A DNA stretch of 64,000 nt from NCBI RefSeq assembly GCF_031760065.1, contig NZ_CP134500.1, positions 3,968,001 through 4,032,000 on the forward strand, given 5' to 3'. The translations under genes and the position numbers were made by a program. The notes under the pieces are model-generated. The model saw only the letters and a list, made by a program, of their open reading frames with translations, was not told the DNA's origin and made no database searches. Source of the DNA: Streptomyces durocortorensis (lineage in GTDB: Bacteria > Actinomycetota > Actinomycetes > Streptomycetales > Streptomycetaceae). Shown here in pieces: positions 1,253-32,226 of the stretch. How positions within the stretch are numbered: the stretch's first letter is position 1; every line of letters begins with the position of its first letter.

Positions 1253-6200
<4,948 letters not shown>

Positions 6201-6201
6201 T

Positions 6202-6394: not shown

Positions 6395-6406
6395 AATTTT
6401 TCCGGG

Positions 6407-6437: not shown

Positions 6438-6469
6438 CTGCGTTCCGGGGAGGGCAGGGCCCTCCTCTC

Positions 6470-8443: not shown

Positions 8444-8505
8444 CTGTCTCTTCTTCCTGCTTCTCTGCTTCTTCCTGCTCTTTCGTCTGCCTTCGCTGCT
8501 TGGGC

Positions 8506-8861: not shown

Positions 8862-9023
8862 GCCGTCGACGCTATGGAGCGGGCCGGTGGCGGTCGTCCG
8901 GCCGGGGGCGGGACGTGGGGCGGGGCGTAGTACCCGGGTACGACGGCGTGTGGCGGTGACCAGGGGGCGGGGGCTGGGGTTTAGTCGGTTGAAGCGGGGG
9001 AGGGCGGGGGTGAGGATCGGGAC

Positions 9024-9590: not shown

Positions 9591-9651
9591 GCCGTTGGCC
9601 CCTCTTCGTTCGGATGGGGCCGGGGGGGGGAGGAGGTTGGTTTCTGTTCGT

Positions 9652-11235
9652 TCAGATGGCGCCAGGGGTGTGCAGGTGTTGCTGCCAGCGGGCCCGGCCC
9701 TGTTCGCGGGAGCGGAGCAGGGCGACGGTGGGCATGCCCAGATCCTGGCCCTTGGCCAGCAGTTCGGGGAGCTGGGGGAGCGGGGCCACGGCGGCCACGT
9801 CGTCCAGGACCAGCGTCATTGGTGGGTCGAGCCGACCGTCGGATGACCGTGCGGCCATGCGGCGGCCGTGCTCGACCACGTGCGAGGCCAGCGCGGTGAG
9901 GAGGGGCATCGCGCCGGGGCGGGTACGGGGATCCTCGATGGGTTCGCCGACCAGATAGAGCGTTCCCCCCTCGCGGGCAAAAGATTCCAGCGCGGCCGAA
10001 TCCGATCGGTTTGCCGTGCAGGCCTCGCGGATGTGCACCGAGGAGAGGGCCGAGAAGGCCCGTACGTTCAACTCCTGCGCCACTTCGCGCCGTTGCGGAT
10101 AGGCCGTGAGCGCGGACTCCAGGAGCCCGGCGAGTCCGGAGGCGGCCTTGGGGTGCGTACGGAGGAGGCGTACGGGTTCGTGGGCGGCGGCCCCGGAGGC
10201 CCAGCGGGCGACCTGGCGGAAGGGACGGCCGTCCACCGAGGCTGCGTGCAGCCAGCACTGGAGGAGCGTCTGCGCGGTGTCGGCCACCGCCGCGTCGATC
10301 CTGGCCTGCGGGCGGACCGGGGCGAGGAGCGCGGCCGCGCGGCCGGCGGCGGTGTCGGGGTGCTCGCAGCCTGCGGTGGGCGGCCAGTGGAGGCGGGCGG
10401 GGGTGTCGCAGAGGTGGCCCGGGTCGTAGACGAGGACCGGGCCGAGCTTGGCGCGGGCGTCCTTCGTCTCGGCCCAGACCGTGGGGTCCGAGGTGACGAC
10501 GAGGGCCGGTCCCTCGGCGTCCTGGATGGCCTGGACGACGGTGGGGCGCCGGGCGGGGGCGGGGGCGTAGACGAGGAGGGGGGTGCGTGGGGAGGGGAGC
10601 GAGAGGGGTAGATGTGGGGGTGGCTGGTGTGTCGCCCGGGGGGTTGCCCGGCGTGTTTCCCGTTCTGTCGGGTGCGATGGTGGTTGCGGTTGAGGTGGCG
10701 TTGCGGGGGTCTTCGTCAGCGGGGACTCGTGCATGTTGTGGGGTTGCTCGTGCACGTTGTGGGGCTGGTGGAGCTCGTGAGGCTCGTGAGGTGTTCCGTA
10801 CAGGCGCTCCTCGCGGCGCCGTTCCCGGACGACTCTCCAGCGGGCCACGGAGCCCAGGACGAAGACCGTCAGCACCACCAGCACCATCAGCTCGCCGATG
10901 AACAGGCCCCAGAAGAGGCCGTATCCGGAGAGCTGGGACGGGGGCGTGTAGGGCCAGGCGGCAGGGAGGTCCTGCGGGGCCGTGGCCAGTTCGCGCAGAG
11001 CGAGGGGAGTTCGGGTGAAGGTGACGCCGTTCGGCCAGGAGCCGTGGGCGAGGAGGCCGGCCAGGCCGGTGGCCGTCCAGGCGAGCACGGTCGTCGCGAG
11101 CAGGAGGCCGACCAGCCCGACCAGCAGGCCGTCGGGGATACCACCGGTGCGGGGCTCCTCGTGGCGGGGCTGGGGGCCGCCGTGCCGACGGCCCCGCTCC
11201 GGCGCCGGTCCCTGTCCTGCTGCCTGGCGGGCCAT
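9652..11235 (-). CDS. VirD4/TraG-like membrane protein without a Walker A motif
   Basis: This 527-residue protein is the last gene of a type IV secretion-like operon, one base after the VirB4-like gene. Two membrane segments lie at about residues 35-65 and 108-132. A charged low-complexity linker rich in His, Pro and Arg follows (about 140-215), then a TraG/VirD4-type domain. Typical family elements are VVTSDPTVWAET, VLVYDPGHL and a Walker B-like strand MTLVLDDVAA. At the place expected for Walker A (after LLVYAPAPARRPT) there is no GKT/GKS. The protein also ends soon after Walker B (RARWQQHLHTPGAI), whereas coupling ATPases usually continue. It may be a non-hydrolysing coupling-protein homologue. 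Assignment to the family is by motif reading only. Confidence 0.75.
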   Translation of the reverse strand: MARQAAGQGPAPERGRRHGGPQPRHEEPRTGGIPDGLLVGLVGLLLATTVLAWTATGLAGLLAHGSWPNGVTFTRTPLALRELATAPQDLPAAWPYTPPSQLSGYGLFWGLFIGELMVLVVLTVFVLGSVARWRVVRERRREERLYGTPHEPHELHQPHNVHEQPHNMHESPLTKTPATPPQPQPPSHPTERETRRATPRATHQPPPHLPLSLPSPRTPLLVYAPAPARRPTVVQAIQDAEGPALVVTSDPTVWAETKDARAKLGPVLVYDPGHLCDTPARLHWPPTAGCEHPDTAAGRAAALLAPVRPQARIDAAVADTAQTLLQCWLHAASVDGRPFRQVARWASGAAAHEPVRLLRTHPKAASGLAGLLESALTAYPQRREVAQELNVRAFSALSSVHIREACTANRSDSAALESFAREGGTLYLVGEPIEDPRTRPGAMPLLTALASHVVEHGRRMAARSSDGRLDPPMTLVLDDVAAVAPLPQLPELLAKGQDLGMPTVALLRSREQGRARWQQHLHTPGAI

Positions 11236-11236
11236 G

Positions 11237-12664
11237 TCAGGCCACCGTCGACCGTGACGACTCGTTCATGTCGCTCATCCGTTGTTGGTTCTCGATCCGG
11301 GCCGCGCGCTGTTCCGCCTCCAGCTCCGCGGCGCGGATGTCGTCGGGGAGCTGGTCGTCCGAGGAGCCCTCGGTCATGGCGCGGTCGGTGAAGACGAGTG
11401 GGCGTTCGGCTTCGGTGATCAGGTGTTTGACGACCTGGACGTTTCCGTTGACGTCCCAGACGGCGATGCCGGGGGTGAGGGTGGGGATGATCTCGACGGC
11501 CCAGCGCGGCAGGCCGATGACCCGGCCGGTCGCTCTGGCCTCGTCCGACTTCTGGGCGTAGATCGTGCGGGTGGAGGCCATCTTGAGGATGGCTGCGGCT
11601 TCCTTCGCCGCTGCTCCGTCGACCACGTCGCTGAGGTGGTGGACGACCGCGACGAAGGAGAGGCCGAGCCGGCGTCCGAACTTCAGCAGGCGCTGGAAGA
11701 GCTGCGCGACGAAAGGGGAGTTGATGATGTGCCAGGCCTCTTCGACCAGGAAGATGCGCTTCTTGCGGTCGGGCCTGATCCAGGTGTGCTCCAGCCAGAC
11801 GCCGACGATCGCCATGAGGATCGGCATCGCGATCGAGTTGCGGTCGATGTGCGAGAGGTCGAAGACGATGAGGGGCGCGTCGAGGTCGATGCCGACGGTG
11901 GTGGGGCCGTCGAACATGCCGCGCAGGTCGCCGTCGACGAGCCGGTCCAGGACGAGGGCGACGTCCAGACCCCAGGCCCGTACATCGTCTATGTCGACGT
12001 TCATGGCCTCGGCGGACTCGGGTTCGGGGTGGCGCAGTTGTTCCACGATGTCCATCAGGACCGGCTGGCGTTCGGTGATGGTAGCGGTCACGTAGGCGTG
12101 GGCGACCTTGAGCGCGAAGCCGGAGCGCTCGTCGAGGCCGTGGCCCATCGCGACTTCGATGATCGTACGGAGCAGGGCGAGCTGGCCCGTGGTGGTGATG
12201 GAGGGGTCGAGGGGGTTGAGTCGGATGCCGCCGTTGAGGGCGGCGGTCGGGTCCAGGCGGATGGGGGTTATGCCCAGCTCCTGGGCGATGAGGTTCCATT
12301 CGCCGACGCCGTCCTCGCCCTGGGCGTCCAGGACGACGACCTGGCGGTCGCGGAAGCGGAGCTGGCGCAGGACGTAGGTCTTCTCCAGCGCGGACTTGCC
12401 GTTGCCGGACTCGCCGAGGACGAGCCAGTGGGGGGCGGGGAGCTGTTGTCCGTACAGCTGGAAGGGGTCGTAGATGTAGCCCTTGCCGCTGTAGACCTCG
12501 CGGCCGATGATCACGCCGGAGTCGCCGAGGCCGGGGGCGGCGGTGGGGAGGTAGACGGCCTGGGCCTGGCCCGTCGACGTACGGACGGGGAGCCGGGTGG
12601 TCTCCACCTTGCCGAAGAGGAAGGAGGTGAAGGCATCCGACAATGCGGACAGGGGGTCTCGCAT
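11237..12664 (-). CDS. VirB4-like type IV secretion ATPase (C-terminal ATPase domain)
   Basis: This 475-residue cytoplasmic ATPase resembles the C-terminal half of VirB4/TraC/TraE proteins. Walker A is GESGNGKS at residues 84-91, followed by VVVLDAQGEDGVG and by a Walker B strand RIFLVEEAWHI near residue 300; both are hallmarks of the family. The usual VirB4 N-terminal domain is missing and may be supplied by the upstream SCO6880-like protein. It would energise substrate or pilin movement at the membrane. ATG at 12664; the upstream gap to the next gene is 121 bases and the following VirD4-like gene starts one base after the stop. Confidence 0.88.
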   Translation of the reverse strand: MRDPLSALSDAFTSFLFGKVETTRLPVRTSTGQAQAVYLPTAAPGLGDSGVIIGREVYSGKGYIYDPFQLYGQQLPAPHWLVLGESGNGKSALEKTYVLRQLRFRDRQVVVLDAQGEDGVGEWNLIAQELGITPIRLDPTAALNGGIRLNPLDPSITTTGQLALLRTIIEVAMGHGLDERSGFALKVAHAYVTATITERQPVLMDIVEQLRHPEPESAEAMNVDIDDVRAWGLDVALVLDRLVDGDLRGMFDGPTTVGIDLDAPLIVFDLSHIDRNSIAMPILMAIVGVWLEHTWIRPDRKKRIFLVEEAWHIINSPFVAQLFQRLLKFGRRLGLSFVAVVHHLSDVVDGAAAKEAAAILKMASTRTIYAQKSDEARATGRVIGLPRWAVEIIPTLTPGIAVWDVNGNVQVVKHLITEAERPLVFTDRAMTEGSSDDQLPDDIRAAELEAEQRAARIENQQRMSDMNESSRSTVA

Positions 12665-12785
12665 GGGGTGGGTGCCCTCTCTCGTTGCGGGGGTGGTGGG
12701 GTGCGTCTTTGTCGGGGTGGGGCGGGCGGGCGTCAGCTTCTTCTGGGGCCTGGTCGGTGCCGGCCCTTTCGGGGCTTGGCCGGCG

Positions 12786-14336
12786 TCAGCGGCGGATGCC
12801 TGTGGCGAACGGGAGTGTGTTCACGAAGGCGCGGTGGTGTTCGCGGTCGCACCACTCCAGCTTGAGGTAGGACTTGCCGGCCGAGGCGCGGATCGTCCGC
12901 TTGTCGCGGGCGAGTGCCTCGGGTGAACGCGAGGACACCGTGATGTACCCCACCAGGTTCACTCCGGCAGCGCCGCTGGCGAGATCTTCACCCCGCTGGT
13001 CGAGCCGGCCGTGGGCGGCGATGTCGCGGGGGTCGACGGTGCGGTTCATCTTGGCCTGGCGGCTGGCCTCGGCGTCGTCGTTGGTCTTCTCGGTCAGCAT
13101 GCGTTCGATGGCGACCTCGGTGGGTTCGAGGTCCATGCAGACGGCGACCGTACGGATGACGTCGGGGGTGTGGACGAGGAGCGGGGCGAGGAAGTTGACG
13201 CCGACGGGGGTCATCGGCCACTCCTTCACCCAGGCCGTGGCGTGGCACCAGGGGGCACGGGTGGTGGACTCGCGGGTCTTGGCCTGGAGGAACGTGGGCT
13301 CGACGGCGTCCAGTTCGGCGGGCCAGGCGTTGCGCTTGGTCATGGCCTGGATGTGGTCGATGGGGTGGTCGGGGTCGTACATGGAGTGCACGAGGGAGGC
13401 CAGGCGGCTCTGGCCGAGCGGCTGGCGGACCCGGATGTCGGCCTCGGCGAGACGGGCGCAGATGTCGGTCAGCTCGCGGGCCATGACGACGGCGAGGCCG
13501 GCGTCGCGGTCGAGTCTGCGGCCGCCGTGGGGGCGGGCGGCGCGGGCCATGGCGTTGGCCTCGGCGGCGAGCTCGCGGCTGTAGTGCATGCAGGCGACGA
13601 GGTAGGCGCGGTGCTGCTCGCTGGAGGTGGAGACCATGGACTGGAGCTGGTCGTAGGAGTCCTGGAGCCAGCCGGGGGCCGTCTTGTCGCCGCGCTGGGC
13701 GACGTCCTTGGCATGGGCGTCGGGGTCGGCGGGGAGGGTGCGGGCGAGCATCTGGAGGCGGGTGACGAAGCCGTCGCCGTTGGCCACGTGCTTGAGGAGG
13801 GTGCCGAAGCGGTCGACCAGGGCTTCCTGGTCCTCGCTGTCGCGGAGGCCGACGCCGGGGCCCTCGATCTCGATGGCGGCGGTGACGGTGCGCCGGTCGG
13901 CGTGGAGGAGTACGGCGATCTCGTCGGGGCCGAAGGGGGCGGCGAGCCAGCTGATCCGGCCGATGCCGGGGGGCGGGCCGATCTCGACCTCGCGGCCGTC
14001 GGCGCTGACGCCCGCCTCCATGGCGCCGGAGCGGTAGGCGGTGCCGCGGCGCAGGGACCGCTTGAAGCTGCGGTTGATCTCGAACCACTTGTAGAACGTC
14101 CGGTGCTTGTACGGGACGTACACGATGGCGAGGGCCAGAAGAGGGAAGCCCACGAGGCAGACGATGCGGAGGGAGAGGACGGGGACGAGGAGTCCGCTCA
14201 TCATGCCGAGGAACGCGCCGGCGATGATCAGGGCGATCTCGCCGGTCTCGCGGTTCTTGCCGACGATCGCGTTCGGCCGGGCGCGGCCGATGAGATACGT
14301 ACGGCGGGGCGTCATCGTGTGGGACTGGGTCGTCAA
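12786..14336 (-). CDS. SCO6880/PrgI-like T4SS component
   Basis: This 516-residue protein has two membrane segments near the N-terminus (about residues 35-75), as in PrgI/VirB3-like subunits. A large soluble region follows that resembles the VirB4 N-terminal domain (ISWLAAPFGPDEIAVLLHAD, then FVTRLQMLARTLP). The family is known as SCO6880. With the next gene it would reconstitute a split VirB4. The start is a TTG at 14336, supported by an exact AGGAGG (14346-14351) nine bases upstream and by a TTGA overlap with the stop of the preceding gene. An ATG at 14315 is the alternative. Confidence 0.85.
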   Translation of the reverse strand: MTTQSHTMTPRRTYLIGRARPNAIVGKNRETGEIALIIAGAFLGMMSGLLVPVLSLRIVCLVGFPLLALAIVYVPYKHRTFYKWFEINRSFKRSLRRGTAYRSGAMEAGVSADGREVEIGPPPGIGRISWLAAPFGPDEIAVLLHADRRTVTAAIEIEGPGVGLRDSEDQEALVDRFGTLLKHVANGDGFVTRLQMLARTLPADPDAHAKDVAQRGDKTAPGWLQDSYDQLQSMVSTSSEQHRAYLVACMHYSRELAAEANAMARAARPHGGRRLDRDAGLAVVMARELTDICARLAEADIRVRQPLGQSRLASLVHSMYDPDHPIDHIQAMTKRNAWPAELDAVEPTFLQAKTRESTTRAPWCHATAWVKEWPMTPVGVNFLAPLLVHTPDVIRTVAVCMDLEPTEVAIERMLTEKTNDDAEASRQAKMNRTVDPRDIAAHGRLDQRGEDLASGAAGVNLVGYITVSSRSPEALARDKRTIRASAGKSYLKLEWCDREHHRAFVNTLPFATGIRR

Positions 14337-15700
14337 CGCCCTCCACCTCCTGTGCTCGGGTTACCTGTACTGCCGGAGCCACCGCCTCCGCCTCGGGAGG
14401 GGCGGCTGCTGTGGGGGGTGCTGGAGGCGGGGGCGGAGCCGCCGCTGCGGGGCGGGGGTGCGGCGGAGGGGACAGATCCGCCGCCGACCCCGCTCCCGCC
14501 GCCGCTTCCGCCGGAGGTGCGGGAGCTGTGTGCGGCGACGCCGCCGCTGGCCGGGTTGGCGGGGCGGCCTCCGCCGGAGCTGTTCTGGTCGTTGCGGCCG
14601 CTGTGGGTCTTGATGCCCTGGGAGACGAGGGCGGCCGGGGAGCTGATGAGGGCGGCGGCCTGGGCGCCGTCGGTGGCCTGCTTGCGGTTGGTGCGGGCGC
14701 CCTGGATCTCGTCGCCGAAGCCGGGGACGAAGCGGTAGATCATGGCGGAGGCGAAGATGGCGAGCAGGATGATGGCGAGGCCGGAGACGACGGCGGAGAA
14801 GGCGTCGGGGCCGTCGTTCGCGGAGAGCGCTCCGGCGAGGCCGAGAACAATGACGATGACGGGCTTGACCATGATCACCGCGATCATGATGCCGGCCCAG
14901 CGGCGGACATGGCCCCACATGTTCTTGTCGACGAGACCGGCGTAGACGACGATGCCGAGGAGCGCGCCGACGTAGAGCAGGGCGGCGCGGATGACGAGCT
15001 CCAGCCACAGGATGCCGGCGGCGAGGATCGAGACGAGCGAGACGACGATCAGCATGATCGGGCCGCCGCCGATGTCCTCGCCCTTCTTGAGGGCTTCGGC
15101 GAACGAGCCGAAGAAGACGTCGCTCTGGCCGCCGGTGGAGGAGGCGATGACCTCGGTGACGCCGTCGGTGGCGGAGACGATCGTGTAGAGGATCAGGGGG
15201 GTGAAGGCCGAGGCGAGGACGGTGAGCCAGAGGAAGCCGACGGCCTCGGAGATCGCGGTGGTGAGGGGGACGCCGCGGATGGCGCGCTTGGTTACGGCGA
15301 GGAGCCAGAGGACGAGGGTGAGGATGGTGGAGGCCGCGAAGATGACGGCGTACTGCTGGAGGAACTTGGGGTTGGTGAAGTCGACGTTCGCCGTGGACTC
15401 GACGGCCTCGCTGAGCTTGCCGACGATCCAGGCGGCGGCGTCGGCGCAGCCTCGGGCTAGGGAGGAGAGGGGGTCGAGGGCGTCGGTGGGGGGGACGTCC
15501 TGGGTGCGGGAGGTGGCGCCTTCGCCGCCTTCGCAGTAGTCCTTGGCGGGGCCGCGGATGAGGTCGCAGGGGTCGTTGCTGGGTTCGGGAGACGGTGTGG
15601 GGTCAGCGTGGGCGTGGCTCGCGAAGAGAATGGCAGTGGCTTGAGTACCGGCTAGGGGTGCTGCGAGAGAGCGCCCCCGATGGGATCGCTTACCTGGCAT
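14333..15700 (-). CDS. TrbL/VirB6-like polytopic membrane protein
   Basis: This 455-residue protein has an N-terminal signal-like segment ending near SHAHADPTP, an extracytoplasmic region with several Cys, and five or six membrane segments between about residues 110 and 320. The C-terminal tail of about 110 residues is very rich in Gly, Ser and Pro. That architecture matches TrbL/VirB6 channel proteins of conjugation-type T4SS. Its stop overlaps the next gene (TTGA) and its ATG overlaps the upstream gene by 11 bases, so the operon is tightly coupled. The low-complexity tail is unusual and may interact with wall or cytoplasmic partners. Confidence 0.85.
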   Translation of the reverse strand: MPGKRSHRGRSLAAPLAGTQATAILFASHAHADPTPSPEPSNDPCDLIRGPAKDYCEGGEGATSRTQDVPPTDALDPLSSLARGCADAAAWIVGKLSEAVESTANVDFTNPKFLQQYAVIFAASTILTLVLWLLAVTKRAIRGVPLTTAISEAVGFLWLTVLASAFTPLILYTIVSATDGVTEVIASSTGGQSDVFFGSFAEALKKGEDIGGGPIMLIVVSLVSILAAGILWLELVIRAALLYVGALLGIVVYAGLVDKNMWGHVRRWAGIMIAVIMVKPVIVIVLGLAGALSANDGPDAFSAVVSGLAIILLAIFASAMIYRFVPGFGDEIQGARTNRKQATDGAQAAALISSPAALVSQGIKTHSGRNDQNSSGGGRPANPASGGVAAHSSRTSGGSGGGSGVGGGSVPSAAPPPRSGGSAPASSTPHSSRPSRGGGGGSGSTGNPSTGGGGR

Positions 15701-16562
15701 AGGTGAACCCTCCGAACTGCTTCACCGCATCCGCCATTTCTTCGGCGGAAGACGCCGCTTGGTCGCGGCCGACGGGGACGGGGCCGTCCTTCTGCTGGAA
15801 GTCGGAGACCTTCCAGTCGTCTTCGACCCATGTCAGCTCGTAGGTGGTCGTGTACCAGCTTTCCGACACGGGGTTCTTGGAGCCTTCACCAGCCAGGCCG
15901 AACAGGGCGGAATACCAAACAGCGACGGTTGCGGTATCACCGGTGTACTTCTCCACCTTGGTGCCTACGGGGTTGGCACGCGAGATGAAGGTAAGTCCGT
16001 CGGGAGCACTGCCGTCTGGGTTCAACCCGATGTTCGCGAGGAAGGATTTCCCTGAATAGACCTTGTCCAGGTCCTCCTGGCGCGCTCTCGCCACGTCCGG
16101 CGCGTAGACCGCTTCGGAGATCTCGCGGCGCCGCTCCTTGATGAACATGCCGTCAGATACGAGGGCTACGGAATAGTTCGCCGCCGCGCTCTGCGCCCCC
16201 TGCTCGTCGTGGGCGAAGCCGGAGGCGATGGTGCCGTTCTTGCCCTGGACGGGCTTGGTGCCGGTGGGCGCGGTAGGGGCGCTGCCTGCGGTTCCGGGGT
16301 TCTTCGTGCCGGAGGAGGCGTTGTCGTCGCTGCCACCGCCCCGGTTGGCGAAGGCGATGGCAGCGATGAGGAGGACCACGACGCCGGTGATCGTGACGAG
16401 GGAGCGGGAGTTCCGGACGGGGCGGCGCGTGCCGGGGTGGCCCGCGTCGCCGTCGGGGAGACGGGTGCGGGTCTGGCGGGTGCCGCCGAGGGTGCTGTAC
16501 GGGTCGTCCGAGCGGCCCGCCTGGTCCTTGCCGCGGTAGTCGTGCTCGTCACCGGGACTCAT
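15690..16562 (-). CDS. VirB8/TcpC-like bitopic conjugal transfer protein
   Basis: This 290-residue protein has about 65 cytoplasmic residues, one membrane segment (LVTITGVVVLLIAAIAFA), a disordered Gly/Thr/Pro linker, and an extracytoplasmic domain of about 170 residues ending in WYTTTYELTWVEDDWKVSDF. That layout and ending are typical of NTF2-like VirB8/TcpC proteins that scaffold T4SS channels. ATG at 16562 has a purine-rich GAGGGAG about 10 bases upstream; an in-frame extension to 16667 has no support. The fold assignment is inference from layout. Confidence 0.78.
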   Translation of the reverse strand: MSPGDEHDYRGKDQAGRSDDPYSTLGGTRQTRTRLPDGDAGHPGTRRPVRNSRSLVTITGVVVLLIAAIAFANRGGGSDDNASSGTKNPGTAGSAPTAPTGTKPVQGKNGTIASGFAHDEQGAQSAAANYSVALVSDGMFIKERRREISEAVYAPDVARARQEDLDKVYSGKSFLANIGLNPDGSAPDGLTFISRANPVGTKVEKYTGDTATVAVWYSALFGLAGEGSKNPVSESWYTTTYELTWVEDDWKVSDFQQKDGPVPVGRDQAASSAEEMADAVKQFGGFTYAR

Positions 16563-16743
16563 GCCGCGTTCGCTCCCTCGGTCGTGTGCAGATCCGAGCA
16601 GGACGACGGTAGCTTTGCTGGTTGCCGCGTGAGCGCGGTGGAGTGACTCGACATCAGGGAAACGCAACCTCAGCCGGTGGGCGCGACGGGCGGATGGTGG
16701 GGAGCGGGCTGGGACGGCCCGGTGCGGGATGGCCGACGGTGGG

Positions 16744-17061
16744 TCAGACGGCCATTCCGTACACGATGGTGAACAGGGTGCCGAGGGAGCCGATGATGAA
16801 GACCCCGGTCAGGCCTGCCACGATCAGCCCCTTGCCCTGTTCCGCGCTGAACGTGTCGCGGAGCGCTGTCGCCCCGATGCGCTGCTTGGCCGCGCCCCAG
16901 ATCGCGATGCCGAGGCAGAGGAGGATGGCGATCGCCATCACCACCTCGATCATGATGCGTGCCTCGTTGCCCAGCGTCCCGAACGGCCCCCAGTCCGGGG
17001 CGATTCCGCCGATGATGGTGGTGATGTCGCCCTTCTCTGCTGCCAGGATCATGTAAGTCAC
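16744..17061 (-). CDS. small two-helix membrane protein, VirB2-sized
   Basis: This protein of about 105 residues has two hydrophobic helices (about residues 35-58 and 78-102) separated by a short polar loop with AKQRIGATALRDTF. Size and layout fit a VirB2/TrbC-type subunit or a small T4SS membrane partner, but there is no diagnostic motif. Two starts are possible: GTG at 17061, which overlaps the TGA of a short upstream frame (GTGA), or ATG at 17052, which has AGGGG upstream at a workable distance. It is the first well-supported gene of the minus-strand secretion-like operon. Confidence 0.75.
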   Translation of the reverse strand: MTYMILAAEKGDITTIIGGIAPDWGPFGTLGNEARIMIEVVMAIAILLCLGIAIWGAAKQRIGATALRDTFSAEQGKGLIVAGLTGVFIIGSLGTLFTIVYGMAV

Positions 17062-17231
17062 CGCCCCTGTTGGGTAGTTCGCCGCCTGTGCCGTTCTGGC
17101 ACGGGTCGCCCTCTATCTTCGCTGATGAAACCGCGCTCGTACGACGCCTTCCGGGTCTCTTTACCCGGATCTCGCACGCTTGACCGGGGCGGCCACCCTG
17201 ACCTGCGGCTCGCCCCGGATTCTTCACGCAT
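17058..17231 (-). CDS. possible short Arg-rich upstream peptide
   Basis: A 57-codon frame (MREESGASRRSGWPPRSS...) ends in a TGA that overlaps the GTG of the small membrane protein gene. It is rich in Arg and Ser with no recognisable domain. The GTGA overlap would allow coupling, but the frame has no strong ribosome-binding site and could be chance in GC-rich DNA. Confidence 0.25.
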   Translation of the reverse strand: MREESGASRRSGWPPRSSVRDPGKETRKASYERGFISEDRGRPVPERHRRRTTQQGR

Positions 17232-17604
17232 ATGCCTGGTTACTCTGTGTATCACGCGCTGTGACCGGGAGCAACGACGGTGGCCATGGGTTCCTGATGC
17301 GGTTGCAGCGTTCGTAGGGCATGGCGTGTTCGTATGCGCCCTTCGAGAGCCGCTGATGCGCCGGTCGGCATGTGGTCCCGGGCGGGCGGAGTCGCCGCCT
17401 CGTACCGGTGGTCTGTGTCCCGTCCCCTCCGTTCGGGTGAACTGCGTGGCCCGGCGGGAACGGTGCTGGTCGGTTCGCGGGCCGGGAAACACCGTGCGAG
17501 CGGTGTAGGGGGCTTGCGCGCTGCGCTGTTGACCGGCGGCATGTCGGGGCCTGCGGATTTGGCACAGTGCCGCCGGTCGGCGATCAGGAGGCGGGGCGAG
17601 CGGC
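17062..17604. promoter_or_regulatory. divergent intergenic region
   Basis: This 540-bp region separates the minus-strand secretion-like operon from the plus-strand hydrolase module and should hold both promoters. I see no consensus -35/-10 pair. Apart from the doubtful short peptide frame (17058-17231), no gene is evident. Confidence 0.5.
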
Positions 17605-18102
17605 GTGAGTGAAGTCGGTGGCGTGAACGGTGCGGGTGGAGCATCCGCCGGCGGGCAGCCTGACGGGGTATCGGGGCCGGCCGGGACGGGGAGACCTGTC
17701 GGGCCGGTGGCGCCGGGCTGGGTCGGCCCCGCGGTGCCGGCCTGGGCGGTCGGACCGGTCGGCGGGGCAGGGGACGGAGATGGGGATCTGCGGCACAGCG
17801 ATGCTCCGTGGGTACGGGCCGCCGGGAGCACCGATCATCTGGTCACGCATCTCGGGCCGGTCAAGGGTGAACTGGAGACCGCGCACCAGGGCCTGACCGC
17901 CGGGGCCGGGGCGCTGGCTTCGCTGGCGGAGTTGAGTTCCGTACGGGACTCGTGGGAGCGGCGGCTGGAAGGGGCGCGCGGTGAGTGCGGGAGCCTCGCC
18001 GGGAAACTGCGGGCGGTCGCCCGTTGCCAGGCCGAGGTCAACGAAGTAGTGAGGAGCAGCTTCGACCAGGTGAAGACCCAGAGCTGTGGCGGGGCGCGGT
18101 GA
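17605..18102 (+). CDS. helical WXG100-like protein upstream of DUF1023 hydrolase
   Basis: This protein of 165 residues has a Gly/Pro/Val-rich, probably disordered N-terminal half (about 1-70). A helical domain of about 85 residues follows, including LSSVRDSWERRLEGARGE. The helical part has the size and two-helix look of WXG100/ESAT-6-like proteins, although a clear WxG turn is not present. No signal peptide is visible. GTG at 17605 follows AGGAGG (17586-17591), at a long 13-base spacing. The stop overlaps the next gene's GTG (GTGA), so the two are coupled. Function unknown; it may accompany export or folding of the hydrolase. Confidence 0.7.
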   Translation: MSEVGGVNGAGGASAGGQPDGVSGPAGTGRPVGPVAPGWVGPAVPAWAVGPVGGAGDGDGDLRHSDAPWVRAAGSTDHLVTHLGPVKGELETAHQGLTAGAGALASLAELSSVRDSWERRLEGARGECGSLAGKLRAVARCQAEVNEVVRSSFDQVKTQSCGGAR

Positions 18103-19931
18103 GCGGGCGGGGTGGCGCGGGCGGCGGTGCGGGTGCGGCGGGTTCCCCGCTGACGTGGGCCGCGTTACGGGATGTGAAGTGCGCCGAGCTGGAGGAGGCC
18201 GCCGATGGGTGGGGCCGGGTGAGTAACCGCGCCGATGCGGCCCGGGACCGTATCGAGGGCCAGATCCTGCCCGGACTGCGTGACACGCAGAAGGGGGAGG
18301 CGGCGGGGGCGGCTCTCGGGCGGTTGCGTCGGCTGGGCATGAACTTCCAGTACATCTATACGGAGTGCGGGCTGCTGCGGACCACGCTGAACAGCCTGGC
18401 CCATGAGATCAAGGCCCAGCAGCGGGTGTTGCAGGAGGCGCTGGACGAGGCGGCGGCGCTGAGGTTCACGGTGCACCCGGATGGTTCGGTGACGTATCCG
18501 GCGGCGGGGGAGGGCCTGGTCGAGGGGAAGCCGTTGGCGGGCGGTACGGCGACCGGGGTTCCCAATCCGGGCATGGTCACCCCTTCCGGCCTGGCCGCGC
18601 CCAACCCGCACGCGGGCAGGGCTCAGGACATCGCGGACCGGGTGGCGCAGGCGGTGCGGACGGCAGCAGATGCGGACTGGCGGTACACCAGGATCCTGCG
18701 GTCGCTGAAGGCCCACGGTGGCCTGGGCGTCCCGGCCGCGACGTGGACGGACGCCGCGGCCGATGCGGCGGCGGTGCGGCAGGCGGCGAGGAGCTACTTG
18801 GAGAACGCGATCCCGCACGATGCGACTCCGGCCGAGCGCAAGAAATGGTGGGACGCGCTGACGGACGAGCACCGCGAGGAGTACCTCGCGGTGTACCCGG
18901 ATCTGATCGGCAACCTGGACGGCATTCCGGCCCTGGTACGGGATGCGGCGAACCGGGACAACCTCCAGTTGCTGATGGGGAAGCTGGAGGGGCGGGACGA
19001 CGAGGACGCGGTGACCAAGCTGGCCGCGCTGCGGGAGATCGACCGGCAGTTGCGGGTGGTGCCGAAGGCGGGGGAGCCGCCGATGTACTTGCTGGGGATC
19101 GGGGATCAGGGGAATGGGCGGGCGATTGTCTCGTACGGGAACCCGGATACGTCGAGGAATGTGGCGGCTTATGTCCCGGGGTTGAATACGTCGTTGGATG
19201 AGGAATTCGCCAAGGGCGACCTGAAGAGGGCACGTGACACGGCCGTAGCTGCAAGAGAAATTGACCATTCCACTGCGGCGATCGTGTGGCTGGGGTATGA
19301 CGCGCCTCAGAGTCCGGACGGGCTGAGCAGCCTGGCTGTTGCCGGCACCGAAAGGGCGGAGACCGGCGGCCGAGCTTTCCATGGGTTTATGTCGGGACTG
19401 GAGGTATCGAACGACCACGGTGATCCGCACATGACGGCTATCGGGCACTCCTACGGATCCAGAACGGTCGGAGCGGCCACGCAGCAAGGTGACGGGATCC
19501 CTGGGGTCGATGACATCGTCCTGGTTGGCAGTCCCGGCGTTGGCGTGGACCGTGCAGAAGATCTCAAGGTGGGAAGGGATCACGTATTTGTTGGCGCTGC
19601 GGAAAACGACGTGGTGACCCACCTTCCTTCGAAGGAGAAGGGGGTTCTCGCGGCAGCGGGGAGCGCGCTCGGGCCGGCAGGATCCATTGTTGTGGATGCG
19701 GTCCATCCGGGAGGCAGTGATCTTTGGTTCGGCAGGGACCCGGCAAGCGAGGACTTCGGTGCGCGGCGCTTCGCTGTGGATCCAGGGCCACCGCTGGTCG
19801 GGCTTGGCCGCGTTTCGATCGAGGCGCATTCGCAGTATTTCGACCCGGAGTTGGACTCCGCGTCGGCCGGAAGTATCGCGCTTGTTGCGGCAGGACATGG
19901 TCATAGGGTCAGGCGGGAGGAGGCGCGTTGA
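18099..19931 (+). CDS. DUF1023 alpha/beta hydrolase with helical N-terminal domain
   Basis: This 610-residue protein has a helical N-terminal half (about 1-290) resembling the N-termini of WXG/LXG-type exported proteins. The C-terminal half is a DUF1023 alpha/beta hydrolase: LLGIGDQGNGRAIVSYGNPD, VAAYVPGLNT, a WLGYDAPQ block, the nucleophile elbow GHSYGS (Ser about 451) and VGSPGVGVDRAEDL. The natural substrate of this family is not established. No Sec signal is seen, so export would need another route. GTG at 18099 overlaps the previous stop. A longer in-frame start at 17985 is unlikely because it lies within the upstream gene. Its TGA overlaps the TTG of the following lipoprotein gene. Confidence 0.88.
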   Translation: MSGRGGAGGGAGAAGSPLTWAALRDVKCAELEEAADGWGRVSNRADAARDRIEGQILPGLRDTQKGEAAGAALGRLRRLGMNFQYIYTECGLLRTTLNSLAHEIKAQQRVLQEALDEAAALRFTVHPDGSVTYPAAGEGLVEGKPLAGGTATGVPNPGMVTPSGLAAPNPHAGRAQDIADRVAQAVRTAADADWRYTRILRSLKAHGGLGVPAATWTDAAADAAAVRQAARSYLENAIPHDATPAERKKWWDALTDEHREEYLAVYPDLIGNLDGIPALVRDAANRDNLQLLMGKLEGRDDEDAVTKLAALREIDRQLRVVPKAGEPPMYLLGIGDQGNGRAIVSYGNPDTSRNVAAYVPGLNTSLDEEFAKGDLKRARDTAVAAREIDHSTAAIVWLGYDAPQSPDGLSSLAVAGTERAETGGRAFHGFMSGLEVSNDHGDPHMTAIGHSYGSRTVGAATQQGDGIPGVDDIVLVGSPGVGVDRAEDLKVGRDHVFVGAAENDVVTHLPSKEKGVLAAAGSALGPAGSIVVDAVHPGGSDLWFGRDPASEDFGARRFAVDPGPPLVGLGRVSIEAHSQYFDPELDSASAGSIALVAAGHGHRVRREEAR

Positions 19932-20491
19932 GGGATTCACTTCGGGCAATTCTAGTGGCCGGTACTATCGGCCTGATGGTGGCTGGATGTGCGATTAATG
20001 GGGGGCTGGATATGGATATGCAGGGCGCGGCGGATCGGTCTGACGCAATCCTTGACGAGGTATTGTGGGAGATTCGACCAGAATTACGATGGACGCATGG
20101 TCCCACTACGGTTGGAATCTGCGATCTGACGCGGCGTCGCGTCGTAATGACTGATGTCTCGGTTACGCGTCGGGGTAACCTCCTGGGGGTAGTGGACCGG
20201 TTCTGGCGTAAGAGTGGGTATCGGATGACTGCGGTGAACAATGATGCAGTATTTCCTGCTATTTACGCTCGGACGCAAGATGGATTTTCGGTGAGCCTTC
20301 GCATTGGGGGCAAGGGTCAAGCCTTCTTCCAGGTGGACACGCCGTGTGTCCGTGAGTCCGAAGTGGCTGACTCCACCAGCCAGGCGACCGCGCCCCTCTA
20401 TGAGGGCATGGAGTTCATTCCTCGCCCGAACATCCACTCCGACTTCTGGTCGGCAGAGACGCCGGAAGTCGACGCAACGTCCGGGCGATGA
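19928..20491 (+). CDS. small lipoprotein coupled to the DUF1023 hydrolase
   Basis: This 187-residue protein starts at a TTG that overlaps the hydrolase stop (TTGA). It has a lipoprotein signal peptide with lipobox MVAGC at about residues 17-21. The mature part has no domain I recognise and contains a Cys pair. Base composition is visibly lower in G+C than its neighbours (for example around 20020-20300), which suggests separate acquisition or fast evolution. Its position after a possible exported enzyme would suit an immunity-like or docking lipoprotein, but that is inference. Confidence 0.8.
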   Translation: MRDSLRAILVAGTIGLMVAGCAINGGLDMDMQGAADRSDAILDEVLWEIRPELRWTHGPTTVGICDLTRRRVVMTDVSVTRRGNLLGVVDRFWRKSGYRMTAVNNDAVFPAIYARTQDGFSVSLRIGGKGQAFFQVDTPCVRESEVADSTSQATAPLYEGMEFIPRPNIHSDFWSAETPEVDATSGR

Positions 20492-21165
20492 CTAGAGCGA
20501 GTTGGATCAACTTGCTGGCTGTGTGAGAGCTTTGAGTCCCCCATTGGTCCCTGGGCCCATGCCGCTCCCCCTGGCGGCGTGGTCGCATACGCGGAGTGAC
20601 TGACCTGGTGTCGTTCCGCCCACTGGCGAGGCAAGGGACTGCTCTTGGTTGGCACGCGAGGAAGTACGGTCTCTGCCGGCGTCGGTGCAAGCGCTGCCAC
20701 AGCAGGCTCGGAAGGACATGCGATGCCCCGGTCGTTGCAGGCAGTCCTGATCCTGGTTCGTGTGCTCGTCGTGGACACCCTGGTGGACGCGGCCAGGTTG
20801 CTGCGCGCGCTCGTGTTGTCGCTGTACGTCCGTACTGGCGGTGTCCACGTCTGACGCGGGCTCCTCGCCGTGCAGGTGCGGGTCGTTCTTGGCGGGAGCG
20901 CGGAGCTGGGTGGTGCAGCAGGGGGGCTGTCCTCTACCCGGCTGAACGGCCAGTCCGACTTCTGGCCGGGGGAAGGGGGTGAGGTCCTGTCAGTTCTGCT
21001 GCTTCGGGCTACCGCCTTCCGTTCTGTGGTGGTGAGCCGGGGACGCCCCCCTGTGCCTCGGGTGCGCCGGTGATGTGTCGCGGATGCCTCGGGAGAGTCG
21101 CGGATGACTCGTACACACCCGCGAAAACATCCCTGAAGCGTCCCTCGATGGGGGATGGTTGAGGG
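20492..21165. other. intergenic region with no confident gene
   Basis: About 670 bases separate the lipoprotein from the wall hydrolase. Long antisense frames here are low-complexity shadows. The only frame with a good ribosome-binding site is a 43-residue hydrophobic peptide at 20723-20854, listed separately. No terminator hairpin stands out. Confidence 0.5.
20723..20854 (+). CDS. possible small hydrophobic peptide
   Basis: A 43-residue frame begins at an ATG preceded by GGAAGGA at good spacing. It encodes MPRSLQAVLILVRVLVVD followed by an amphipathic, Leu/Val/Arg-rich stretch. It could be a membrane-active peptide or small membrane protein. There is no homology evidence and the frame may be chance. 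Confidence 0.35.
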   Translation: MPRSLQAVLILVRVLVVDTLVDAARLLRALVLSLYVRTGGVHV

Positions 21166-22176
21166 GTGCGGAAACTCTGGGTGTTCGGTGGCATCGGCGT
21201 CGGCATGGTCATGTGCTTCCTGGCGCTGCTCGTCGTCGGTACGTACTCGGCCGCCGCCGGACTTGCCGGGGCGGGCGGCGGTGGTGCCGTCGCGCTCGCC
21301 AAGGGCGCCGTTCCGGCGCGGTACCAGCCGCTCGTGCAGAAGTGGGGCGATCTCTGCCCCGCCATCAACCCCGCGCTGCTGGCCGCGCAGTTGTACCAGG
21401 AGAGCGGCTGGAATCCGCGGGCGCAGAGCCACGCCGCCGCGCAGGGCATCGCCCAGTTCATCCCTGGCACCTGGGCCACACACGGGATCGACGGCAACGG
21501 CGACGGGAAGCGGGACGTCTGGGACCCCGCCGACGCGATTCCCTCGGCGGCCTCGTACGACTGCGAGCTCGCCGGGTACGTGAAGAAGGTGCCGGGTGAC
21601 CCGACGAACAACATGCTGGCCGCCTACAACGCCGGGGCCTACGCGGTGATCAAGTACGGCGGTGTCCCGCCTTACAAGGAGACGCAGAACTACGTCAAGA
21701 TCATCCGCTCGCTGGAGAAGAGCTTCGCCCGGCCGGTCGGTCGTGTCGCGCCCTCCCGGCAGGCGGCCGGGGCCATCTACTTCGCGCAGAAGAAGCTCGG
21801 CACGCCGTATCTGTGGGGCGGCAACGGGACGCCCGAGCAGCAGGGGCGGTTCGACTGCTCGGGGCTGACCCAGGCGGCGTACCGGACCGTGGGCATCGAG
21901 CTGCCGCGCGTCGCCAACGACCAGTACAACGCGGGACCGCATCCCGCGCGGGACGAACTGCTTCCGGGGGACCTGGTGTTCTTCTCCGACGACCTGACCA
22001 ACTCCCGGGCGATCCGGCATGTCGGGCTGTATGTCGGGGGCGGCTATATGATCAATGCCCCGTTCACGGGGGCGGTGATCCGGTTCGACAAGATCGATAC
22101 GCCGGACTACTTCGGTGCGACCCGGGTCACCAAGGACGGGGCGGCTGCCCTGCCGACGGATCTGCCTCCGGGGTGA
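21166..22176 (+). CDS. bifunctional lytic transglycosylase / NlpC-P60 endopeptidase
   Basis: This 336-residue exported wall hydrolase has an N-terminal membrane anchor or signal (about residues 4-25). A lytic transglycosylase domain follows, with catalytic Glu at about 79 in YQESGWNP and the family block AAQGIAQFIPGTWATHG. The NlpC/P60 domain has its Cys at about 231 in RFDCSGLTQ and its His in IRHVGLYVGG. The pair would cut both glycan strands and peptide stems. Such two-domain enzymes accompany Gram-positive T4SS (VirB1 role, opening the wall), which fits the neighbouring operon. The GTG start at 21166 follows GAGGG closely. The second domain ends near the C-terminus with no wall-binding module. 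Confidence 0.92.
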   Translation: MRKLWVFGGIGVGMVMCFLALLVVGTYSAAAGLAGAGGGGAVALAKGAVPARYQPLVQKWGDLCPAINPALLAAQLYQESGWNPRAQSHAAAQGIAQFIPGTWATHGIDGNGDGKRDVWDPADAIPSAASYDCELAGYVKKVPGDPTNNMLAAYNAGAYAVIKYGGVPPYKETQNYVKIIRSLEKSFARPVGRVAPSRQAAGAIYFAQKKLGTPYLWGGNGTPEQQGRFDCSGLTQAAYRTVGIELPRVANDQYNAGPHPARDELLPGDLVFFSDDLTNSRAIRHVGLYVGGGYMINAPFTGAVIRFDKIDTPDYFGATRVTKDGAAALPTDLPPG

Positions 22177-22497
22177 GACGGATTCCTCTCCAGGGGTCCG
22201 CTTCCGGAGGCCCGCCGCCACGGCTGACGTCCAGTCATCCGTGGCCGGAACTCTCCGTGAAGCCTGGGCCCTGAGCTGCGGCGACGAGTCACTCTTCGAT
22301 AACGTCATGGTGATCATTCGGTGGAGAGCGGAACGCACGCGGCGGCCGGGCCGTTCCCTGGAGAGCACAGTGCAGTAGAAGCGGATCGCACCGAACACGG
22401 GGGTTCGACCACGGCGGCGCGCTCGGACGTGCGTCGCAGCAGATGATCCAGCAGATGAAGCAGCAGATGAAGCAGACAAGGCAAGGGGCCGCAGCAG
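22177..22497. other. intergenic region with short AGCAGATGA repeats
   Basis: No gene is visible in these 320 bases. Immediately before the PAP2 start, AGCAGATGA-type 9- to 12-base units repeat four or five times (22437-22499), and the last one overlaps the start codon context. Confidence 0.5.
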
Positions 22498-23229: not shown

Positions 23230-23268
23230 CCCTCCGCTCGACCGTCAACTGCATGATCGTTTTGCCTC

Positions 23269-23303
23269 CGTTCCCCCAGGTGCTCAGAGCGCCTGGGGGA
23301 ACG
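23269..23303 (+). terminator. terminator hairpin after the PAP2 gene
   Basis: Arms CGTTCCCCCAGG (23269-23280) and CCTGGGGGAACG (23292-23303) pair perfectly around an 11-base loop. It lies between convergent genes and may act in both directions. No long T run follows. Confidence 0.7.
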
Positions 23304-23346
23304 TGCGTGTAGGGGTACCCGGCGGTCTTGTACGGGTACCCGGCGG

Positions 23347-28010: not shown

Positions 28011-28787
28011 TCAGCCGAAGCGGCCGGAGATGTAGTCCTCCGTGGCCTGGACCGACGGGTTGGCGAAGATGCGCTCCGTCTCGTCGATCTCGATGAGCTT
28101 GCCGGGCTGGCCCACGGCCGCCAGGTTGAAGAACGCCGTACGGTCCGAGACGCGGGCCGCCTGCTGCATGTTGTGCGTCACGATGACGATCGTGAAGCGC
28201 TCCTTCAGCTCGCCGATCAGGTCCTCGATGGCGAGGGTCGAGATCGGGTCGAGCGCCGAGCACGGCTCGTCCATCAGCAGGACCTGAGGCTCGACCGCGA
28301 TGGCGCGGGCGATGCACAGTCGCTGCTGCTGGCCGCCGGAGAGGCCGGAGCCGGGCTTGTTGAGCCGGTCCTTGACCTCGTTCCAGAGGTTGGCGCCCTT
28401 GAGCGACTTCTCCACGACGTCCGTGAGCTCGCTCTTCTTGTACGTGCCGTTCAGACGCAGACCCGCCGCGACGTTGTCGAAGATCGACATGGTCGGGAAG
28501 GGGTTCGGGCGCTGGAAGACCATGCCGACGGTGCGGCGGACGGCGACCGGGTCGACGTCCCTGGCGTAGAGGTTCTCGTCGTCCAGCAGCACCTTGCCCT
28601 CGACGCGACCGCCGGGGGTCACCTCGTGCATGCGGTTCAGGGTGCGCAGGAAGGTGGACTTTCCGCAGCCGGACGGGCCGATGAAGGCCGTCACGGAGCG
28701 GGGCTCGACGGTCATCGAGATGTCGTCGATCGCACGGTGCGTGCCGTAGAAGGCGCTCAGCCCGCTGACATCGATGCGCTTGGCCAT
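28011..28787 (-). CDS. pstB: phosphate ABC transporter ATP-binding protein PstB
   Basis: This 258-residue ABC ATPase powers high-affinity phosphate import. It has Walker [10 protein letters not shown], the PstB-typical signature [14 protein letters not shown], Walker [14 protein letters not shown] and the switch-His region [15 protein letters not shown] at 28787 is preferred over one three codons upstream. Last gene of pstSCAB; 25 bases after pstA. Confidence 0.97.
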
Positions 28788-28812
28788 GGGGATCACTTCA
28801 CTTTCGGTGGCC

Positions 28813-29886
28813 TCAGCGGCCGGTCTGCGGGGCCTTCCAGCGGGCGATGCCGCGGGCCACCAGGTTGAGGATCATGACGAAGGCGATCAGGACCAGGGCG
28901 CCTGCCCAGGCGCGGTCGACCGAGGCCGTCGTGCCGACGGAGTACTGCTCGTACACGTACAGCGGCAGTGACGACTGCGCTCCGTCGAAGGGATTCGGAT
29001 TGATCAGCTTCGTGCCGAAGACGAGCAGCAGGACGGGGGCGGTCTCGCCGGTGATGCGGGCCACCGCCAGCATCACACCCGTCGTGATGCCGCCGATCGC
29101 CGTCGGCAGGACCACCTTCAGGATGGTGCGCCACTGGGGAACGCCCAGGGCGAGGGAGGCCTCGCGGAGCTCGTTCGGGACGAGCTTGAGCATCTCCTCG
29201 GTGGAGCGGACGATCACCGGCATCATCAGGATCGCGAGGGCCAGGGAACCGGCGAAGCCGGACGGGCCGAACCCGAGCATGAGGTTCCAGGTGGCGAGGA
29301 CGAAGAGACCGGCCACGATCGACGGGATGCCCGTCATGACGTCGACGAAGAAGGTGACGGCCCGGGCCAGCCTTCCCCGCCCGTACTCGACCAGGTAGAC
29401 GGCGGTCAGCAGGCCGATCGGGGTGGCGATGAGCGCCGCGATGGCCACCTGCTCGATGGTGCCGAGCAGGGCGTGGTAGACGCCGCCGCCCTCCTCGGTG
29501 TCGAGGAGGCCGCTCATCGAGTGCGTGAGGAAGTAGCCGTCGAGGACGGTGACGCCCTTGCTGAGGGTGATCCACGCGAGGGAGAGCAGCGGCACGATGG
29601 CCAGCAGGAAGCAGACCCAGACCAGGCTCGTGGCGACACGGTTCTTGCCCTGGCGGCTGCCCTCCACCTTCGCGGTGATGAGGTAGGTGGCGGCCACGAA
29701 GACCAGGGCGGAGATCATGCCCCACTGGGTGCGGCTGTCCAGCCCGGCCACGAACCCGATCAGGCAGCCGGTGGCCACCGAGCCGACGGCGATGGCCGCG
29801 GGGGCCCAGCGGGGCATCCTTGCGTGGGCGAGCGTGGCGTGCGACGGGGCGGCGACGGGGCGCTTTTCCTGGACGGTGTGGCTCAT
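28813..29886 (-). CDS. pstA: phosphate ABC transporter permease PstA
   Basis: This 357-residue membrane protein has a long N-terminal region with extra membrane segments followed by the binding-protein-dependent transport domain. The EAA-like loop ([20 protein letters not shown]) contacts PstB, and [20 protein letters not shown] is characteristic of PstA. It forms the channel with PstC. The ATG overlaps the pstC stop (ATGA). Confidence 0.96.
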
Positions 29887-30875
29887 GCGTTGGCCCCCGA
29901 GTACTCCTTGCGGCGGGCGATGATCGCGCGGGCCGCGCCGTTGACCAGCAGGGTGATGGCGAAGAGGACCAGGCCGGAGGCGATCAGGGCGTCACGGCCG
30001 AATTCGTCCGCCTCGTTGAACTTCGCGGCGATGTTCTGGGCGAAGGTGCCGCCGCCCGGATCCAGCAGGTGTCCGGAGAGCACGAAGCTCGGGGAGAGGA
30101 CGACGGCGACGGCCATCGTCTCGCCGAGCGCACGGCCCAGCCCCAGCATCGAGGCGCTGATGATGCCGGAGCGGCCGAAGGGGAGGACCGCCATCCGGAT
30201 GACTTCCCAGCGGGTGGCACCGAGGGCCAGAGCGGCTTCCTCGTGCATCTTCGGCGACTGGAGGAAGACCTCGCGGGTGACGTTGGTGATGATCGGCAGG
30301 ATCATGATCGCCAGCAGGATGCCGACGGTGAAGAGGTTGCGGGCGGCGCCCTCGCTGGTCCGCTCGAAGATGTAGGTCCAGCCGAGGTACTCGTCCAGCC
30401 ACTTGTTCAGGCCGTCGAGGTAGGGCACGAGGAAGACCACGCCCCAGAGGCCGTAGATGATGCTGGGGACCGCGGCGAGCAGGTCCACCAAATACGCTAT
30501 CGGGCCGGCCAGCCGGCGCGGCGCGAAGTGCGAGATGAACAGCGCGATGCCGATGGCGACCGGCACGGCCAGCACCATCGCGATGACCGAGCTGACGATG
30601 GTGCCGAAGGCGAGGACCGCGATACCGAAGACGGGCGGGTCGCCGGCCGGGTTCCACTCGAAGGTCGTGAGGAAGTTCGCCTCGTCCTTGGAGATCGCGA
30701 GGACGGTGCGGTAGCTGAGGAAGGCCGCGATGGCGGCCATGATCACCAGGAGGGTGATGCCGGACCCCTTGGACAGACCGAGGAAGATCCGGTCGCCGGG
30801 TCGGGCCTTGCCGCGGGGAGCGCCTGTGGGCTGCTCCGGTGGCGGCGCTTGCTTGGGTGCGGTTGCTGTTTCCAT
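29883..30875 (-). CDS. pstC: phosphate ABC transporter permease PstC
   Basis: This 330-residue, six-helix permease includes FSYRTVL-type early segments, YLVDLLAAVPSIIYGLWG and the EAA-like loop EEAALALGATRWEVIRM. ATG at 30875 is preferred to an in-frame start at 30923, which would read through the intercistronic hairpin region. It is coupled to pstA by ATGA overlap. Confidence 0.96.
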   Translation of the reverse strand: METATAPKQAPPPEQPTGAPRGKARPGDRIFLGLSKGSGITLLVIMAAIAAFLSYRTVLAISKDEANFLTTFEWNPAGDPPVFGIAVLAFGTIVSSVIAMVLAVPVAIGIALFISHFAPRRLAGPIAYLVDLLAAVPSIIYGLWGVVFLVPYLDGLNKWLDEYLGWTYIFERTSEGAARNLFTVGILLAIMILPIITNVTREVFLQSPKMHEEAALALGATRWEVIRMAVLPFGRSGIISASMLGLGRALGETMAVAVVLSPSFVLSGHLLDPGGGTFAQNIAAKFNEADEFGRDALIASGLVLFAITLLVNGAARAIIARRKEYSGANA

Positions 30876-30931
30876 CTGATGTCTCCGGTCTGCGGAGCCG
30901 TACGGCTCCTGGCGGCGGTGCACCGGAAGGC

Positions 30932-30962
30932 GCGGCCGGCCCCCGGTCAGGGGGCCGGCCGC
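30932..30962 (-). terminator. GC hairpin between pstS and pstC
   Basis: A perfect 13-bp GC stem (30932-30944 with 30950-30962) with a five-base loop lies in the pstS-pstC gap, with no T run. It would partly terminate or stabilise the upstream transcript, giving more PstS than PstCAB. Confidence 0.7.
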
Positions 30963-30969
30963 GGCCGGG

Positions 30970-32112: not shown

Positions 32113-32226
32113 TTTCGGGTGTTCCTTCCAGGAGCCGCCGTGGTCAGTTCGTTCTACGACGGCGTGCGATGGGGAGGAGTGCTGTGGCTTGCCGCCGCGC
32201 ACCTTGTACGTCCGAAATTAGGCAGA

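Follow-up and report, generated by a model that had tools for sequence, protein, structure and literature searches.

Introduction

The closest described counterpart of the genes analysed here is cmdABCDEF (SCO4126-4131) of Streptomyces coelicolor, six co-transcribed genes encoding five membrane proteins and the membrane-located ATPase CmdB, in an operon that is induced during development. In the available passages of the 2009 study of this operon (PMC2782261), the authors noted the homology of CmdB to VirB4 and proposed testing for a type IV-like channel. Here we examine a locus of Streptomyces durocortorensis in a 64-kb stretch (hereafter the window; positions 3,968,001-4,032,000 of the single 7.30 Mb contig, roughly its middle) that appears to be the orthologue of cmdABCDEF and of the adjacent tgdA. 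We consider it probable, at about 0.78, that cmd and tgdA together are a conjugative type IV secretion system (T4SS) that was captured by a Streptomyces ancestor and fixed in the chromosome for development, that of the aerial hyphae in particular.

The same passages of the 2009 study describe the mutant phenotypes. Deletion of cmdB or of the operon in S. coelicolor led to late, poor sporulation and aberrant branching, with 8% (cmdB) and 6% (operon) anucleate spores compared to 0.1%. Actinorhodin was overproduced in cmdB, cmdD, cmdE and operon mutants and its timing was affected, while deletion of cmdA brought no apparent change in sporulation. In S. lividans and S. avermitilis, too, mutants of the operon developed and sporulated poorly. 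A K90 mutant of CmdB failed to complement, and the authors did not exclude that protein stability was lost. According to the available text of PMC6585502, SCO4142 is pstS and SCO4132 is tgdA, which encodes a putative secreted lytic transglycosylase; in tgdA mutants, actinorhodin rises to the same level as in cmdBCDEF mutants. The operon, its deletion phenotype and its T4SS resemblance are thus already in print. We found little mechanistic follow-up on cmdABCDEF, SCO4127 or cmdB in the open-licence literature, where the available Streptomyces passages of a 2025 T4SS review describe TraB-type transfer.

Results

The locus and its S. coelicolor counterpart

A sequence-only reading of the window had proposed a near-complete T4SS set of seven proteins, and all seven open reading frames (ORFs) were found where that reading had placed them. 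Six form an operon on the minus strand (17061..9652), and the SLT/NlpC gene at 21166 is divergent.

16744..17061, minus strand: cmdF-like, 105 aa, two hydrophobic helices, pilin- or VirB2-sized; plasmid homologues in the same position
15690..16562, minus strand: cmdE-like, VirB8-fold protein; the longest ORF reaches 16667, start probably at 16562
14333..15700, minus strand: cmdD-like, VirB6/TrbL-like protein with multiple transmembrane (TM) segments; weak SCO6881_fam match
12786..14336, minus strand: cmdC-like, SCO6880 family, PrgI/VirB3-like TM pair plus VirB4 N-terminal domain (SCO6880_fam, hhalign)
11237..12664, minus strand: cmdB-like, VirB4 C-terminal ATPase domain (AAA_10, PDB 4ag5, Walker A lysine 90)
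9652..11235, minus strand: cmdA-like, degenerate VirD4/TraG coupling protein (similarity to plasmid TraM-recognition proteins, motif loss)
21166..22176, plus strand: tgdA-like (SCO4132), bifunctional SLT and NlpC/P60 wall hydrolase (Pfam SLT, NLPC_P60)
28011..32202, minus strand: pst-type phosphate-transport genes, a synteny anchor, with PHO4 and PhoU_div genes alongside

Gene number, order and direction are those of cmdA-F, with the ATPase gene second from the downstream end. Lysine 90 of CmdB, the residue named for the S. coelicolor protein, lies within Walker A in the window and in 80/80 named loci, S. coelicolor not being among them. The tgdA-like and pst-type neighbours are present, as the numbering of SCO4132 and SCO4142 would require, and CmdC and, weakly, CmdD match the families of SCO6880 and SCO6881, which the 2009 study gives in its available text as paralogues resembling cmdC and cmdD (PMC2782261). 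Together, neighbours, gene order, the Walker lysine and family matches point to a locus orthologous to cmdABCDEF-tgdA. S. coelicolor shares the six-gene order, a VirB4-like CmdB with K90, the neighbouring SLT-type enzyme and the pst-type genes. No difference is established, but SCO4131 and SCO4132 are consecutive numbers, and in the window cmdF and tgdA are separated by three additional genes.

A VirB4 ATPase that appears divided between CmdB and CmdC

CmdB matched the AAA_10/VirB4 family (Pfam, 49.9 bits against a cut-off of 27.5) and the VirB4 structure PDB 4ag5 (E 3.9e-6). CmdC matched SCO6880_fam at 193 bits (cut-off 60). When a profile of 28 CmdC sequences was compared with the N-termini of Gram-positive VirB4 proteins, hhalign gave probabilities of 84-94. 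PrgI was matched in 3/11 members of the CmdC family, with a best E of 0.0031, and not in the window's own CmdC. On these profile comparisons, CmdC and CmdB look like one VirB4 split in two. We also observed that an SCO6880-family protein of another locus (L126:7938-9440) matches the type VII secretion protein EccE (TIGR03923 E 7.7e-11, below cut-off; Pfam EccE 3.2e-4), so that EccE and the VirB3/VirB4 N-terminal module may be connected.

Degeneration of the coupling protein CmdA

CmdA is a degenerate descendant of the VirD4 coupling ATPase that, judged by its motifs, has lost the canonical ATP-binding site. It is 26-27% identical over ~520 columns to the TraM-recognition proteins of two plasmids (L121 and L122), and its TraG-D_C match (18.7 bits, under the cut-off of 22) covers only positions 1-48 of the 126 in the profile. 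Walker A was present in 0/62 full-length CmdA copies, compared to an intact GK in 21/21 VirD4 relatives; the Walker B glutamate is replaced by aspartate (E to D), and the C-terminus is short by about 110 residues. On motif comparison, CmdA is not the ATP-binding VirD4 coupling protein that a conjugative element needs.

CmdD, CmdE, CmdF and TgdA

CmdE has a VirB8 fold, and in the fold comparison it also matched PrgL of pCF10. Its start is probably at 16562, giving 290 aa, as suggested by the length of its relatives. CmdD contains several hydrophobic segments and matched SCO6881_fam at 25.1 bits, well below the cut-off of 325; TrbL matches, all below cut-off, were obtained in 3/6 CmdD homologues from other families. 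CmdF had no Pfam match, and so none to a pilin family, but is 38-40% identical to equally placed proteins of 105-107 aa on plasmids L121-L123; its median identity was 94% over the 71/80 loci with a match. The TgdA-like enzyme shares 44% identity with the hydrolase that adjoins the CmdF homologue on plasmid L123, and 53% with a hydrolase on plasmid L124. The locus thus carries a VirB4 ATPase, a VirB3/PrgI plus VirB4 N-terminal domain, a VirB8-fold protein and a VirB1/CwlT-like wall hydrolase, and the pore (CmdD) and pilin (CmdF) modules of a T4SS are probably kept as well.

These assignments bear out the sequence-only reading of a T4SS-derived chromosomal locus. Its VirB4-like ATPase at 11237, SCO6880/PrgI-like protein at 12786, VirB8/TcpC-like protein at 15690 and transglycosylase/NlpC enzyme at 21166 were all recovered. 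The TrbL/VirB6-like assignment at 14333 and the VirB2 assignment of the two-helix protein at 16744 are tentative: the first has matches that all fall below cut-off, the second has equally placed plasmid homologues but no pilin family match. VirD4 descent was correctly read at 9652, but not an intact VirD4, and "near-complete" needs qualifying: the catalytic motifs of the coupling ATPase are gone.

Relaxase, integrase and attachment sites

In line with the same reading, neither of two relaxase families was found, nor an integrase or att-like repeat near the locus. A search of the whole genome for two families, TrwC (PF08751) and Relaxase (PF03432), gave no match at E <= 1e-5. Within the window, neither an integrase nor a large recombinase (PF00589, PF07508) was detected, nor any tRNA; the nearest tyrosine recombinase match is at 3,919,966, about 48 kb before the window. 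Direct repeats of >= 20 bases resembling att sites were not found on the flanks of the operon within 6395-26200. TrwC and Relaxase were also searched in 59 of the genomes matching CmdB. On the contig carrying the CmdB relative, a MOBF/MOBP relaxase was located no more than 50 kb away in 0/30 cmd loci, compared to 21/27 relatives in other families. Among Streptomyces paralogues the figure was 3/12 of those listed, and in a second actinomycete family, f15, it was 0/10 for the main copies and 4/5 for the others.

Distribution, selection and phylogeny

CmdB was matched (E <= 1e-20) in 293/296 Streptomyces genomes, 291 of them at E <= 1.2e-264, and cmdC in 80/80 named loci. The patchy distribution expected of a conjugative element was not seen. 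CmdB is 97-100% identical in the named Streptomyces loci L001-L008. In a class-wide sample, 116/394 genomes matched CmdB, 47 of them Streptomyces (the non-matching genomes are mostly not listed); the listed matches outside the genus have 24-38% identity, except one at 78% in a contaminated draft. Of plasmid records, 200 matched, all at < 60% identity. No second CmdB copy was found in the S. durocortorensis genome, where the next match had E 0.02. In two draft assemblies (L020, L057) we observed local strand flips inside the cmd operon, probably assembly errors.

Median dN/dS against the window was 0.37 for cmdA, 0.085 for cmdB, 0.12 for cmdC, 0.41 for cmdD, 0.37 for cmdE and 0.05 for cmdF; cmdB, cmdC and cmdF, at 0.05-0.12, are under strong purifying selection. 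In a CmdB tree of 45 rows, all 11 cmd rows grouped into a single clade (100/99), and five of the six plasmid-type rows, which represent Streptomyces-type plasmid systems, fell on its side of the tree (98/92). The sister group of cmd is unsure because the plasmid branches are long.

Related machines on plasmids and in a second clade

Plasmids L121 and L122 of Streptomyces and Actinacidiphila carry homologues of F, E, D, C, B and A arranged as in cmd, except that one additional small gene separates E from D, and on L123 a wall hydrolase adjoins the CmdF homologue. CmdB is 41-50% identical to its counterparts on L121-L123 and 35% to that on L124. The VirD4 proteins of L121-L123 have intact Walker motifs and a full C-terminus, unlike CmdA, and the plasmid sets differ from cmd in that cmd is chromosomal and nearly universal in Streptomyces. 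The Streptomyces plasmid L124 has genes resembling those of CmdB and CmdC, and directly upstream of its wall hydrolase lies a gene with an FtsK/SpoIIIE domain; this plasmid is a possible hybrid of TraB-type and T4SS-type transfer.

Two further systems can be compared. Conjugative T4SSs of Gram-positive bacteria of the pCF10 type have VirB4, PrgI, VirB8-fold and wall-hydrolase modules in common with cmd but, unlike cmd, a VirB4 in a single polypeptide, a relaxase and a VirD4. The SCO6871-6884 cluster of S. coelicolor contains paralogous VirB4, SCO6880 and SCO6881 proteins (SCO6878, SCO6880 and SCO6881), and its SCO6878 or SCO6881 mutants, unlike those of cmd, are without developmental phenotype, according to unpublished data cited in the available text of PMC2782261.

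A second relaxase-less set without VirD4, branching apart from cmd, exists in the chromosomes of family f15 (L126-L132, L134), which we would guess to be Micromonosporaceae. Homologues of E, D, C and B were present in the same order in 8/8 loci fetched, and no VirD4 homologue was found within the ~20 kb fetched for each of the 8. A TgdA-like gene occurred in 5/8 loci, in several of them truncated by the end of the locus. E was preceded by a two-helix protein in 6/8, and the one tested matched DUF6112. In the CmdB tree the 8 f15 rows formed a clade of their own (100/100) on the opposite side from cmd. A VirB4-like gene was found in 8/8 searched genomes of one genus of this clade (g48), and a virB4 gene is noted among unknown genes of Micromonospora lupini in the available text of PMC4182475.

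Surroundings of the operon

Two further features lie beside the operon:

17605..20491, plus strand: non-core insert that separates cmdF from tgdA and encodes a small protein, an Abhydrolase_8 protein and a second small protein starting like a lipoprotein
1252-6394: ribosomal RNA operon

The Abhydrolase_8 domain of the insert scored 110.5 bits (Pfam), and the three insert genes were matched in 13, 13 and 10 of 80 loci, some of which stop short of that region. In the pst block, the first and last genes were tested and matched ABC_tran and PBP_like_2; the two middle ones were seen as ORFs only. A tandem repeat with 39-base spacing occupies 23654-23887, in the early part of an ORF listed at 23545 whose true gene start may be later.

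Discussion

We propose that a Streptomyces ancestor took up a conjugative type IV secretion machine and fixed it in its chromosome. In such a machine CmdB would be the VirB4 motor, paired with CmdC (VirB3 plus the VirB4 N-terminal domain); CmdD would form a VirB6-like pore, CmdE a VirB8-fold extracytoplasmic scaffold and CmdF a pilin-like subunit, while TgdA would open the wall locally. With the canonical ATP-binding motif missing from CmdA and no relaxase found at the locus, the classical route of DNA recruitment and pumping appears to be gone. In growing aerial hyphae, the complex, driven by VirB4, would build an envelope-spanning structure or export a protein or pilin-like cargo, and this structure or export would be needed for orderly branching, septation and chromosome distribution. 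The segregation defect may then be secondary to the septation and branching defects.

Where the sequence-only reading had held the job of the machine to be unclear, the published deletions of cmdABCDEF affect sporulation and actinorhodin timing (available text of PMC2782261). Its premise that Streptomyces conjugation uses TraB, not a T4SS, was too narrow: related sets occur on Streptomyces and Actinacidiphila plasmids, and the same source reports that SLP2 depends for its transfer on its own genes of this type. In the open-licence literature searched, we found no earlier description of a dead CmdA, of an apparent VirB4 split, of the VirB8 fold in CmdE, of a count across the genus or of the second clade.

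Several points weigh against our proposal. First, secretion, pilus, complex assembly and transport are all inferred. Second, orthology stands on order, K90, family names and synteny, and the K404 of the published work has no counterpart at 404, the nearest conserved lysine being 413 (window and 80/80 loci). Third, against the single sequence of R388 VirB4, hhalign gave a probability of only 0.4 for CmdC and a poor 2.5 for CmdB. Fourth, the CmdD and CmdF assignments are weak by sequence, and CmdD had no significant match on plasmids L123 and L125. Fifth, relaxases of only two families were searched and are poor markers within Streptomyces (3/12 paralogues), and contig ends close to some of the 30 cmd loci mean that the full 50 kb is not always visible; for these reasons the relaxase contrast is strongest against other families. 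Lastly, the CmdB tree includes long-branched plasmid rows.

An alternative considered by the 2009 authors is that CmdB is an FtsK-like motor moving chromosome or plasmid DNA during sporulation septation. The anucleate spores of the mutants fit this idea, as does the authors' PHYRE analysis, which likens CmdB to RecA/FtsK motor domains (available text of PMC2782261). We nevertheless consider it unlikely: CmdB matches VirB4, the DNA-handling component of T4SSs, the coupling ATPase, is without its motifs here, and an SLP2-derived plasmid showed no significant change in transfer when the cluster was deleted (same source). T4SS descent would also suit protein secretion against neighbours or for cell-to-cell contact, the kind of role inferred in the sequence-only reading, with the Abhydrolase_8 protein adjoining the operon here as candidate cargo. 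This seems to us more doubtful still, as the published phenotypes are developmental and the Abhydrolase_8 gene was found in 13/80 loci, not all of which extend that far, compared to 80/80 for cmdC. That the locus is a functionless, decaying remnant of an immobile integrative and conjugative element (ICE), as the missing relaxase and integrase, the degenerate VirD4 and the "defective ICE" of PMC9513070 might suggest, is very improbable given a close orthologue in 291/296 Streptomyces genomes, the low dN/dS of cmdB, cmdC and cmdF, and published deletion phenotypes that were complemented, site mutants failing to do so (PMC2782261). In its available text, the 2022 survey PMC9513070 locates that "defective ICE" around the middle of the chromosome in every one of its strains, which come from one population, and it may be the cmd locus itself.

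If cmd is a captured conjugative T4SS as we propose, a genus-wide machine with a degenerate coupling protein, for which mutants already exist, is a tractable model for the VirB4/VirB8 core without DNA cargo, and the second relaxase-less clade would make the question general. It is conceivable, and we put it forward tentatively, that at least twice in actinomycetes, as cmd in Streptomyces and again in the large-genome family f15, a conjugation machine became a chromosomal fixture after being stripped of its relaxase and left with a defunct coupling ATPase or none. In both, the VirB4-VirB3-VirB6-VirB8-pilin core and its wall hydrolase would serve hyphal development by assembling an envelope structure or pilus, with no need of a coupling ATPase. 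If true, this would define a non-translocating or coupling-independent class of T4SS.

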